The position numbers and the translations under genes are program-made. From the NCBI RefSeq assembly GCF_030161875.1, contig NZ_BSVA01000001.1:744001-808000 (forward strand): a stretch of DNA of 64,000 nt, given 5' to 3'. Below are positions 19,511-64,000 of the stretch, in pieces. Positions within the stretch are counted from its first letter, which is position 1, and every line of letters starts with the position of its first letter. The DNA is from Homoserinibacter gongjuensis (GTDB lineage Bacteria > Actinomycetota > Actinomycetes > Actinomycetales > Microbacteriaceae). The notes beneath the pieces are model-generated. The model was not told the origin of the DNA and made no database searches. It saw nothing but the letters and a program-made list of their open reading frames with translations.

Positions 19511-19613
19511 GAGCTGGCTGAGGAGCGCATCGCGGAGCGATACGCGTCTCGAAGCCTCCGTCGCACCTGACGCTGGTTTCGAGACGCCGCTGCGCGGCTC
19601 CTCAACCAGCTGA
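19511..19613. repeat. REP-like palindromic repeat, inverted pair
   Basis: Two copies face each other. The right arm (19572-19613) runs GCTGGTTTCGAGACG ... CTCCTCAACCAGCTGAG and the left arm (19511-19555) is its diverged inverse. The spacer contains CCTCCGTCG and TGACGC. Each arm holds an internal hairpin whose stem differs (CCGC/GCGG versus GTATCGC/GCGATGC) but stays paired. It fills the gap between two converging genes. The same layout recurs at 61,989-62,098. Confidence 0.8.
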
Positions 19614-52636: not shown

Positions 52637-52681
52637 GATTTCGAGACGCGTCGCCTGCGGCGGCGCTCCTCAATCACCTCG
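52637..52681. repeat. REP-like palindromic repeat, single arm
   Basis: GATTTCGAGACGCG and GGCGCTCCTCAATCACCTCG flank a hairpin with stem GTCGCC/GGCGGC-type pairing. It is a single copy of the dispersed element, placed between the converging cls and ferredoxin-reductase genes. Its end abuts the reductase stop codon. Confidence 0.7.
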
Positions 52682-58282: not shown

Positions 58283-58393
58283 GGGCTTCGAGACGCATCG
58301 CGCTGCGCGCGACGCTCCTCAGCCACCTGAACCGCTCAGCGGGCGAGGGCGGCCTGCGCCCCTCATCGGGCGAGGCGGCCTGCGCTCCTCAGC
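58283..58393. repeat. REP-like repeat arm followed by a 26/27-base imperfect tandem
   Basis: GGGCTTCGAGACGC ... GACGCTCCTCAGCCACCTGA (58283-58330) is one arm of the dispersed element. It is followed by two related units, GGGCGAGGGCGGCCTGCG... (58341-58367) and GGGCGAGGCGGCCTGCG... (58368-58393). The last unit ends in CTCCTCAGC, which supplies the menD stop codon. Confidence 0.65.
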
Positions 58394-60855: not shown

Positions 60856-61916
60856 TCAGACGACCGCCGGGATGCCGATCGCGAGCGAGAAGGCGAGCGC
60901 CGCGCCGAGGCCCACGCCGTAGGCGAGGGCCGTCAGGAGCGTGAGCTTGAGCGCCGTGACGTACTCACGCGCGGTGCGCGCCGTCATGACGATGAGGATC
61001 GCCGGAACCGTCGCGAACAGCACGAAGAACACATACGGCGCGAGCTCGTAGAACAGCACGAAGAACACCAGGATGCCGAAGGGCACGAGCACGAAGACCG
61101 TGTAGAGGATGCGCGACGGCAGCTGCCCGATCCGCACCGCGAGGGTGCGCTTTCCGGCTGCGGCATCCTGCTCCCGGTCGCGGAGGTTGTTGACGTGCAG
61201 CACGGCCATCGCGAGGAAGCCGGCCGCCGCACCCCGAGCCACGCCTCGATGTTGACGGTGCCGAGCTGCACGAAGGTCGTGCCCGCGACCGCGACGACTC
61301 CGAAGAACACGAACACGACGAGCTCGCCGAGCCCCGCGTACCCGTAGGGGCGCGTGCCGCCCGTGTAGAACCAGGCGGCGACGATCGCCACGGCGCCCAC
61401 CGCGAGCAGCCACCACTGCTGGGTGACGATCACGAGCGTGAGGCCCGCCACGGCCGCGAGACCGAAGAACACGAGCGCAGCCACGAGCACGTGCCGCGGC
61501 TTGGCGCGACCCGAGCCGACGAGACGCGAGGGGCCGACCCGGTGCGCGTCGGTTCCGCGGATGCCGTCGGAGTAGTCGTTGGCGTAGTTGACGCCGATCT
61601 GCAGCAGGGCGGCAACCGCGAGGCAGAGCACCGCGCGCGCCCAGTGCTCGTACCAGACGTCGAGGCCGAGGGATGCGGCGCCCGTTCCGAGTGCGACCGG
61701 CGCGATGGCCAGGGCGAGGGTCAGCGGACGTGCCGCACCGATCCAGGTGCCGAGGGTTGCGGGCGTCGCCTCGGCCGGCGGGCGGCCCCCGGGCCGACCG
61801 CTCTTGCCGCGGGTCTTCTTGCCGCTCGGCTTGCCCTTGGCGGGCGCCTTCTTCGACGGAGCGTTGCCTCGGGCACGCTCAAGGGCCTGGGGATCGAATC
61901 GCTGCTGCTTCGCCAC
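60856..61916 (-). CDS. menA: 1,4-dihydroxy-2-naphthoate polyprenyltransferase, one frameshift
   Basis: This UbiA-family membrane enzyme of about 353 residues joins the polyprenyl tail to DHNA. The first Asp motif is NYANDYSDGIRGTD and the second is NNLRDREQDAAAGKRTLAVRIG. About eight helices follow a Lys/Pro-rich N-terminal tail of ~50 residues. The frame shifts near 61225-61236, and one base restores GFLAMAVLHVNNL. The start is GTG at 61916; a later start is possible because the tail is not conserved. Confidence 0.9.
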
Positions 61917-61988: not shown

Positions 61989-62182
61989 GGTGGCTGAGGA
62001 GCGGCGCCGCAGGCGACGCGTCTCGAAGCCTCCGTCGAAAGGGGACGCTGGTTTCGAGACGCGCGCCGCTGCGCGGTGCGCTCCTCAACCCGCTGAGTCT
62101 TCGGCGCCGCTGCGCGGTGCGCTCCTCAACCCGCTGAGTCTTCGGCGCCGCTGCGCGGTGCGCTCCTCAACCCGCTGAGTGC
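61989..62182. repeat. REP-like inverted pair extended by a 41-base tandem repeat
   Basis: The left arm (61989-62030) and right arm (62047-62098) repeat the layout of 19511-19613, with the same spacer words CCTCCGTCG and GACGCTGG. The right arm's inner part then recurs in tandem with period 41 (starts 62063, 62104, 62145). The third copy ends inside menE: its CTCAACCCGCTGAGT encodes the last three menE residues and stop. Confidence 0.85.
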
Positions 62183-63302
62183 GTGCGGGCGAGGGTCGCG
62201 GCCGCGCGACGGTCGGGCTTGCCGCTCGGCAGCAGCGGTAGCGCCGCCACGCGCACGACCCCGTCCGGTTTCGCGACCGAGCCGAGCCGCGCCTCGACCG
62301 CCACGAGCACGGCCGGGTCATCGACAGCCGCCCCCGCCGCGACCACCACCGGACGCTCGCCCCACCGGGGATGCGCGACGGCGACGACCACGGCATCCGC
62401 GCATCCCGGCTGGGCGCGCACCACCTCCTCGATGTGCGCGAGCGAGATCTTCACGCCCCCGAGATGATGACGTCGTCGCGACGGCCCAGCACGCGCAGCG
62501 TCTCGCCGTCGAACTCGCCGGCATCGGCGGTGCGGAACCAGCGGATGCCGCCGTCGTTCGTGAAGCGCTCCTCGGTGAGCTGCGGGTCGTCGAGGTAGCC
62601 GTCGGCGACCGTCGGGCCGCCGAGCTGCACCTCGCCGTCGACGATGCGCACGCGCGCCCCGCCGATCGGTCGGCCGTCGTAGACGCACCCGCCGCTCGTC
62701 TCACTCGAGCCGTAGCTGCGCACGACGCGGATGCCGCCCTCGCGCGCCCGCTCGAGCAGCGGCTCCGGCGTCGCCTGGCCGCCCACGAGTACCGCCTGGA
62801 AGTCGCGCAGCACGGCGCGCGCGTCGGCATCGTCGAGCAGCGTCGCGAGTTGCGCCGGCACGAGGGCCGTCGCGTGCGCGGTGTCGTCGGACAACGCCGT
62901 CGCGGCCGCGACGAACCCCGCCGCCGTGAAGTGGTCCCCCGCCACCACCTCGGGCGAGGTCTGCGCGCACAGCGACCGCGCGAGCACGTTGAGGCCCGCG
63001 ATGTAGTGCACGGGCAGAGCGAGCACCCACTGGGCAGGTCCGCCGAGCGCCGATTCGCTCGCGGCAGCGGATGCCAGCACGGCGTCGGCCGACAGCACGA
63101 CGCGCTTCGGGCGGCCGGTCGTGCCGCTCGTCTCCACGACGAGCCCCACGTGCTGGGCGACCGCGGCGGGCAGGGGCGCGGCATCCGCTCCCGAAGCGCC
63201 CGAGGCGACGAAGAGCGCGGGACCGCCCGCGAGCGCCGAGCGGAGCGCCTCGAGCACCGCGACGGGGCCCTCGGTTGCGGCGACCGTGACGAGCGGTCTC
63301 AT
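62167..63302 (-). CDS. menE: O-succinylbenzoate-CoA ligase, one frameshift
   Basis: This adenylate-forming enzyme of about 378 residues has the P-loop ETSGTTGRPKRVVLS, the ALPVHYIAGLNVL core, the YGSSETSGG motif and RTADAGEFDGETLRVLGRRDD. The C-terminal hinge continues as GGVKISLAHIEEV, and the catalytic Lys is in LPSGKPDRR. The frame breaks at a five-G run near 62456-62460. ATG at 63302 is one base after the menB stop. The final residues and the TGA come from the tandem repeat. Confidence 0.9.
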
Positions 63303-63303
63303 C

Positions 63304-64000
63304 TCAGAAATGCCAGGGGTAGGGGCCCCAGTCGGGGTCGCGCTTCTCGAGGAACGCGTCGCGGCCCTCGGCCGCCTCATCCGTGCCGTAGGCGAGGCGG
63401 GTGGCCTCGCCCGCGAATACCTGCTGGCCGACCATCCCGTCGTCGACGGCGTTCATGGCGAACTTGAGCATGCGGATCGCCGTGGGACTCTTGCCGAGGA
63501 TCGTCTCCGCCCACTCGAGCCCCGTGCGCTCGAGCTCGGCATGCGGCACGACGGCGTTCACGGCGCCCATCTCGTAGGCGCGTTCGGCGTCGTACTCGCG
63601 GGCCAGGAAGAACACCTCACGCGCGAACTTCTGACCCACCTGCCGCGCGAAGTAGGCGCTGCCATAGCCCGCGTCGAACGAGCCGACATCCGCATCCGTC
63701 TGCTTGAACCGCGCGTGCTCGCGGCTCGCGATCGTGAGGTCGCACACGACGTGCAGCGAGTGGCCGCCGCCCGCAGCCCAGCCGGGCACGAGCGCGATGA
63801 CGACCTTCGGCATGAAGCGGATGAGGCGCTGCACCTCGAGGATGTGCAGGCGCCCTGCAGCCACAGCTGGTTGAGGAGCCCGCGCAGCGGGCGTCTCGAA
63901 ACCAGCATCGCGGTACTCGTACCCGCTGCGCCCGCGGATGCGCTGGTCGCCGCCCGAGCTGAACGCCCAGCCGCCGTCCTTCGGACTCGGGCCGTTTCCG
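63304..64000 (-). CDS. menB: 1,4-dihydroxy-2-naphthoyl-CoA synthase, 5' end outside the window
   Basis: This crotonase-family enzyme closes the second ring of DHNA-CoA. Visible from GWAFSSGGDQRIRGRSGYEY, it continues AGRLHILEVQRLIRFMPKVV, GWAAGGGHSLHVVCDLT and KQTDADVGSFDAGYGSAY, ending DPDWGPYPWHF. The frame is open to the window edge, so the internal GTG at 63864 is not the start. Residues AGFETPAARAPQPA in the middle are encoded exactly by a 42-base REP-like repeat. They lie in the loop that is disordered and variable in MenB structures. Confidence 0.93.
   Translation of the reverse strand, partial: GNGPSPKDGGWAFSSGGDQRIRGRSGYEYRDAGFETPAARAPQPAVAAGRLHILEVQRLIRFMPKVVIALVPGWAAGGGHSLHVVCDLTIASREHARFKQTDADVGSFDAGYGSAYFARQVGQKFAREVFFLAREYDAERAYEMGAVNAVVPHAELERTGLEWAETILGKSPTAIRMLKFAMNAVDDGMVGQQVFAGEATRLAYGTDEAAEGRDAFLEKRDPDWGPYPWHF
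63865..63906. repeat. REP-like palindromic repeat inside menB
   Basis: The 42-base arm has terminal inverted ends GCTGGTT/AACCAGC, the conserved words TTTCGAGACG and CTCCTCAACC, and an inner stem CCCGC/GCGGG. Its length is 14 codons and it keeps the menB frame open. The other four loci of this element are intergenic. Confidence 0.85.

Follow-up and report, generated by a model that had tools for sequence, protein, structure and literature searches.

How repeats enter conserved proteins without breaking them is an old question about coding palindromes, and it is raised here by the end of a 64,000-nucleotide stretch of Homoserinibacter gongjuensis DNA (the window), in which menB, the gene for the DHNA-CoA synthase of menaquinone (vitamin K2) synthesis, carries 42 extra bases. 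An initial annotation had claimed that these bases are a copy of a dispersed element, which adds 14 codons and keeps the frame, and this has been confirmed by an open reading frame, a match to the MenB equivalog NF006186 above its cut-off and at least 84 copies of the element in the genome. The gene measures 497 codons from stop to stop, and its identity is supported both by the equivalog and by the retained Arg and Tyr of the A-loop. The insert (Table 1) consists of an imperfect palindrome plus one base; the outer arms (7 bp) are perfect and the predicted hairpin has an energy of -24.5 kcal/mol. An alternative start bypassing the insert was considered and rejected, the GTG-start frame at 63864 lacking the oxyanion-hole and A-loop part. 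The reading that we favour from sequence comparison, with a probability of roughly 0.84, is that the 42 bases are a dispersed hairpin palindrome that was inserted in frame into menB and is tolerated in the mobile A-loop.

Table 1. Positions in the window of menB, its insert and copies of the repeat family (fam1).
Feature	Position	Strand	Basis
menB, C-terminal 231 codons and stop	63304..63999	-	open frame; NF006186 E 2e-129; gene start past window end
MenB A-loop, fragment residues 19-51	63847..63945	-	alignment to 4eml numbering; PMC3637252
In-frame insert, 14 codons, AGFETPAARAPQPA	63865..63906	-	42 bases read as GCTGGTTTCGAGACGCCCGCTGCGCGGGCTCCTCAACCAGCT
fam1 palindromic element, 41 bp, arms GCTGGTT/AACCAGC	63866..63906	-	repeat searches; non-coding-copy profile E 8e-13
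Three fam1 copies, 41-bp tandem, between menE and menA	62048..62172	+	repeat profile
Inverted fam1 pair between convergent reading frames	19514..19609	.	repeat profile and flanking ORFs
Weak fam1 copy between convergent reading frames	52639..52676	+	profile E 1.6e-4
Weak fam1 copy between two - strand reading frames	58287..58324	+	profile E 1.9e-4

That the insert belongs to a repeat family was readily apparent when the genome was searched. A 401-base query around the insert gave 62 matches, 61 of them elsewhere, with E <= 6e-4 and overlapping the element part, and a 61-base query gave 74; several copies are 98-100% identical to the menB element over 38-43 nt. An iterated profile run on fetched stretches (E <= 0.01) brought the family to at least 84 distinct copies in 45 clusters, a lower bound that includes partial and weak copies up to E 0.01 and for which only part of the candidates were scored. 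The consensus is TGGTTTCGAGACGCCCGCTGCGCGGGCTCCTCAACCAG, and the element has constant arms (GGTTTCGAGACG ... GCTCCTCAACC) around a self-complementary core of variable length. The 56 copies with exact arms measure 32 (18 copies), 34 (19), 36 (5), 37 (1), 38 (3), 40 (8) and 42 nt (2), so that all but one (55/56) are even, which has a chance of 8e-16 at 50:50, although copies of common descent are not independent. Even lengths and constant arms together imply that the core gains and loses whole base pairs, which is what a hairpin constraint on the element would predict.

Where these copies reside qualifies the original description of the element as intergenic, which holds for most of the family and fails for 4/45 clusters, which are coding; fam1 is therefore mostly, not purely, intergenic. 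Coding status was called from codon-usage scores on both flanks together with inspection; one cluster (661022) with a weak spanning-frame score (0.11/0.11) and flanks coding on the opposite strand was counted as non-coding. By a crude codon-usage call over 270 nt of flank, the 41 non-coding clusters lie between convergent genes (19), genes in the same direction (20) or divergent genes (2). Two candidate identities were set aside. A described RNA family is not indicated, since Rfam at gathering scores returned just three tRNAs over the whole window and no family matching the element. Nor is a REP mobilised by a RAYT in this genome, since PF01797 (Y1_Tnp, the RAYT-type transposase) has no match in it (estimated completeness 89.8%), while being present in 5/14 control genomes.

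The four coding clusters lie in menB, nadB, a cydDC fusion and a heavy-metal P-type ATPase gene, and all are in frame. While menB has one single (not paired) copy, the CydD-CydC fusion has three in its linker (one a half copy showing only GAPQPA), the L-aspartate oxidase NadB has two, as an inverted pair between its FAD domain (3-374) and C-terminal domain (429-515), and the ATPase has one in its His-rich N-terminus (these last three from loci L227-L229 of the window genome, G000). The ATPase cluster failed the codon score owing to its low-complexity N-terminus and was called coding by translation and family match, which is above the cut-off of the heavy-metal model and below that of the copper model. 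The initial annotation had proposed a search for GFET..APQP peptides, and these are indeed present in three further proteins of the same genome (NadB, CydDC and the ATPase); as far as we found, it is new for one genome to carry peptides of this kind in four of its proteins. The choice of frame is uniform, all 6/6 forward coding copies (in menB, cydDC, nadB and the ATPase gene, with one half copy) being read in the FETxPxxxAPQP frame, and the reverse nadB copy in the VEERxxQPxASRD frame. Yet 56/56 exact-arm copies are open in all three forward frames, VSRR and FRDA as well as FET; one reverse frame is closed in 56/56, and the other five of the six are open in nearly all copies. A copy that keeps the phase can therefore be translated. 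The FET frame has the lowest mean hydropathy of the three forward frames (-0.80) and the VEER frame the lowest of all (-1.49).

A peptide recurring in one frame in four proteins of one genome could alternatively be a functional module, a Pro/Ala-rich tag that spread to respiratory and redox proteins (MenB, NadB, CydDC and the heavy-metal ATPase). Three of these four proteins are tied to quinone, cytochrome or NAD metabolism, which is what such a tag would lead one to expect, and GFETRPPAAAAPQPA occurs in the MenB of another genus (L363). This explanation is nevertheless improbable, since 41/45 clusters were judged non-coding, the loops of other species are short or filled with different peptides, and the sequence tracks a DNA repeat rather than a peptide.

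If the insert is a tolerated palindrome, as we favour, its position may explain why. Residues 22, 27 and 51 of the window fragment align with Arg82, Tyr87 and Leu96 of Synechocystis MenB (4eml), which places the insert between two conserved residues, the Tyr at 27 and the Leu at 51. According to the available portion of the structural literature, the A-loop (residues 88-106 in E. coli) is disordered in the unliganded enzyme, forms a beta-turn and a beta-hairpin with ligand, and holds a strictly conserved Arg, a conserved Tyr (Tyr-97 in E. coli) and a hydrophobic patch from Leu-106/Leu-96 (PMC3637252). Since the inserts are flanked by this Tyr and this Leu, the conserved A-loop residues are kept, and the insertion site is, to judge from the alignment, a spare but functionally placed stretch of the active-site lid. 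Against the solved MenB structure 1q51, which we take to be that of M. tuberculosis, the whole aligned window stretch is just 5 residues longer. The structure predicted for the window fragment (without N-terminus or oligomer) has a mean pLDDT of 61.8, with residues 14-51 below 50, and that predicted for an Agromyces MenB with a pair of repeats (without oligomer) has a mean of 69.2, with residues 98-146 below 50. These low values fit a flexible loop and do not single out the insert.

The same loop is variable within the genus, where menB was found in 9/9 genomes. Four of these have only a short loop after GYEY: ATGGAG in G008, REGEPPGAG in G004, REGEAPGAG in G001 and REGEPGDAG in G007. G008 is the genome whose menB has the highest identity to that of the window (97%); removal of the 14 codons from the window's loop leaves 6 residues (RDVAAG), the same length as the 6-residue loop of G008. 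An empty site in relatives, which the initial annotation had asked for, is thereby seen at the protein level; even the G008 loop fails to align with that of the window base by base, and neither a nucleotide-level empty site nor a target-site duplication was seen. In a small MenB and NadB tree, G008 is not sister to the window species, whose own position is poorly supported.

The other five genomes have filled loops, and not all with the same element. The loop of the window genome holds fam1, and that of G002 holds fam2 (profile E 2e-4), a related element (GATCGAGTAGC..GTATCGAGATC) with a consensus containing GTAG; by blastn, the G002 loop element had no match in three other loci of its genome. 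The loop of G006 (L013) holds a partial fam2, with one other match in its own genome (83% over 36 nt). The loop of G003 (L015) contains an in-frame element of ~73 bp unrelated to fam1 and fam2, with TTCCGCAACTCAGGAG/CTCCTGAGTTGCGGAA-like inverted ends and a variable interior, which is 62-90% identical to sequence in 8/8 other loci of that genome that were compared (within L174-L184). In G005 (L010), the loop weakly resembles a decayed copy of the NadB element of that genome (71% over 51 nt).

Beyond the genus, Agromyces cavernae (L042) and Agromyces sp. Marseille-P2726 (L054) have a back-to-back pair of fam2 elements, in frame, in the same MenB loop, and this segment has 61 and 136 matches in the respective genomes (both palindrome strands counted). 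For the 135-nt loop segments, in which the palindromes stand inverted in the middle of these menB genes, the predicted folding energies are -75 and -70 kcal/mol. Profiles also matched the loops of three loci in the same family, L146 (g97), L147 (g90) and L363 (g9); the last, from another genus, has a loop of 71 residues that includes GFETRPPAAAAPQPA, a peptide of the same kind and frame as the window's. Other species have different peptides in the same loop (RVAAEGGVSRS, GRVAPPKATRIET and NPPLAVPDAADAAATPELRNRREG). Conservation of the segment in distant genera, named at the outset as evidence against an insertion, was looked for; in the named set of more distant actinobacteria the loops are unrelated, mostly of fixed length and free of visible repeats, and a conserved native loop of actinobacterial MenB was rejected on this ground.

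How strongly the elements are confined to the loop was estimated from 248 menB loci, of which 247 were parsed (L362 was not parsable) and, 6 being duplicates, 241 distinct loops remained. The gene is present in 390/398 genomes; 20 stretches were picked for long loops, and the others were mostly the best-scoring among the matches listed. First profiles, seeded with the window element and one Agromyces menB element, gave 11 matches in seven loops and none elsewhere in menB; since they were circular for the two seed loops, both profiles were rebuilt from non-coding seeds and copies. The non-coding profiles (E < 0.05) gave 12 matches in the same 7/241 loops (L009, L012, L042, L054, L146, L147 and L363), a fraction that is not a prevalence because loops were sampled by length and score. 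These 12 matches fall in 16,038 nt of loop, versus 0 in 201,975 nt of stop-to-stop menB frame outside it; 9 further matches lie outside menB frames. Under random placement in menB, seven in the loop has p = 1.2e-8, and p is still 2.2e-6 for five loops, when the prompting window copy is left out and the two Agromyces are counted once. Two of the profile matches are weak (L146, E 0.012; L147, E 0.033), and L147 also matches 4/4 loci of its own genome and L146 the one locus compared. By blastn, L012 had no match in the few loci of its own genome that were compared, though the profiles do match it. Two loops beyond the seven match repeats of their own genomes (L015, the ~73-bp class of G003, and L013 of G006), and four were not counted, being weak, unproven or motif-only: L010 (G005), L144, L150 and L122 (g64), the last with a fam2 motif on a different stem and no blastn match in two copies from its own genome.

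Some loops have features of their own. In Salinibacterium, two (L090 and L092) are 61 and 57 residues long and Ala-rich (AAAAAGKRRAAAG), with no profile match. The menB loop of L150 (G104) has a perfect hairpin, GCGGAGGCCA/TGGCCTCCGC, which might be a further element, and that of L144 (G210) has CCCTTCGACAAGCTCAGGA, of which 19 nt recur identically at two other places in G210.

Since MenB loops span 12 to 71 residues and several long ones (of Salinibacterium and Humibacter type) are without a repeat, the loop might be merely hypervariable or of low complexity, its likeness to a repeat arising by convergence in GC-rich sequence. This is scarcely credible given that the window copy is 98-100% identical to several genome copies over 38-43 nt and is matched at E 8e-13 by the non-coding profile, for which the remaining 201,975 nt of menB frames gave no match. 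Chance resemblance was rejected on the same identities and on the loop-confined profile matches. Another view is that the hairpin acts as DNA or RNA in menB (e.g. in a transcription or translation pause), the peptide being a by-product. A core that changes by base pairs, the hairpin of -24.5 kcal/mol predicted for the window copy, the folds of -75 and -70 kcal/mol predicted for the 135-nt Agromyces segments and the apparent preference of non-coding copies for convergent gene ends (19/41, with 20 same-direction and 2 divergent, by a crude call) are all compatible with such a role. However, a hairpin is equally expected of a mobile palindrome, 4/9 menB genes of the genus have short loops only, and the confinement of matches to the loop is what protein tolerance predicts, which makes a nucleic acid role distinctly improbable.

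The MenB loop is not the only place where elements recur. Scans with the menB-seeded profiles found elements in the NadB interdomain linker of 5/9 genus genomes (G000, G002, G003, G005 and G008) and in the CydDC linker region of 6/8 gene-bearing ones (G000, G002, G004, G005, G006 and G008; best E 3e-12 to 8e-5), with none in the NadB linkers of 4 other Microbacteriaceae and none in the CydDC linkers of 2 outside genomes scanned. At least three sites in the genus thus take up repeats recurrently: the A-loop of MenB, the linker between the NadB domains and the linker of CydD-CydC. The MenB loop is an acceptor in other Microbacteriaceae too.

The quality of the assembly also has to be weighed, its estimated completeness being 89.8%, versus 98-99% for its genus mates. 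Two neighbours of menB appear damaged: menE (62170-63278, - strand) has its family match in two frames (profile positions 38-269 and 269-359) and looks frame-broken, through assembly error or as a pseudogene, and menA (60987-61916, - strand) has a family match only to profile positions 5-179 of 296, followed by a change as after a frame break. Such frame breaks and the low completeness mean that the assembly probably holds indel errors somewhere, menB itself being open. One could thus suspect a repeat misplaced in an error-prone single-contig assembly, for which the completeness and the state of menE and menA speak. Such an artefact is very unlikely, since the insert preserves the frame and relatives have comparable inserts in the same loop and in the NadB and CydDC linkers.

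The best reading is that these would be elements like the Rickettsia palindromic elements (RPEs), which a single spare loop has tolerated repeatedly. They are probably mobile or formerly mobile palindromes, which insert at many places and persist mostly near gene ends, those surviving within genes being copies that keep the phase in flexible loops. The menB insert would be tolerated because it is located in the mobile A-loop, between the active-site Tyr and the Leu of the hydrophobic patch, and in loops and linkers selection would retain a hydrophilic frame rich in Pro and Ala, FETxPxxxAPQP in one orientation and VEERxxQPxASRD in the other. We infer that the MenB insert is roughly neutral and that the protein is made and active, neutrality being a guess because the A-loop is catalytically important. 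These observations suggest that repeat DNA keeps adding short peptides to loops that proteins can spare. A broader proposal, which is speculative and on balance doubtful, is that several unrelated palindrome classes are a standing source of in-frame peptides in Microbacteriaceae, with the MenB A-loop a recurrent landing pad across genera, so that mobile DNA, not point mutation, would determine how long a catalytic loop is and what sequence it has, and might tune the enzyme. Since the same loop can be compared when (i) short, (ii) filled with different elements and (iii) filled twice, tolerance, frame choice and catalytic effect become testable. There is also a warning: differences between MenB loops in alignments, including those taken as adaptation, may be repeat insertions.

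Among the closest known systems are the RPEs described by Ogata, Claverie and co-workers, which are dispersed palindromes found between genes and in frame within conserved protein genes (PMC2229807, PMC3733652). The window element is likewise dispersed, intergenic and coding in frame, and the earlier claim of an in-frame dispersed palindrome in MenB comparable to RPEs is supported by the short loops in 4/9 genus genomes, the at least 84 copies and the peptide in three more proteins. That such in-frame elements are known from Rickettsia was correct, but coding palindromes had, in the accessible text of PMC3733652, already been described outside Rickettsia as well. Two differences stand out: the window element, at 41 bp in Actinobacteria, is set apart from the RPE family by size (105-146 bp according to the available part of PMC2229807), and a single protein loop is here filled by unrelated element classes, depending on the species.

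Of the same mode are the intragenic REPs (GTAG and CGTC superfamilies), described in the same portion of PMC3733652 as palindromes of 20-40 bp that occur singly or as dimers, mostly between genes, with a preference for convergent or same-direction gaps, and sometimes inside ORFs; that text also offers one precedent for different REPs at about the same site, in recB of two Xanthomonas species. The window element is also palindromic and mostly intergenic, with some copies in ORFs. However, fam1 has GAGGAG rather than GTAG beside the core (fam2 of the relatives does have GTAG), and the window genome has no RAYT (PF01797) match. In REPINs, two palindromes stand in inverted orientation; the menB copy is single, whereas many other clusters, nadB included, are inverted pairs. 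MITE-type coding elements such as ERIC and Correia/NEMIS (107 bp) resemble fam1 in having open frames through a non-autonomous repeat and in being fused in frame to genes (PMC2229807, available part), and differ in size, the ~73-bp G003 element with its inverted ends being closer to that type. PMC3733652 lists phyla without Actinobacteria, a word absent from its main text, and the open-licence literature yielded, among the papers listed, no earlier report of coding palindromes in Actinobacteria or Microbacteriaceae, nor, as the initial annotation had surmised, in actinobacterial menB; the related work that it lists concerns Rickettsia, Wolbachia, REPs and MITEs. As far as we found, what is new here is the occurrence of such elements in Actinobacteria and the entry of several element classes into one catalytic loop across genera.
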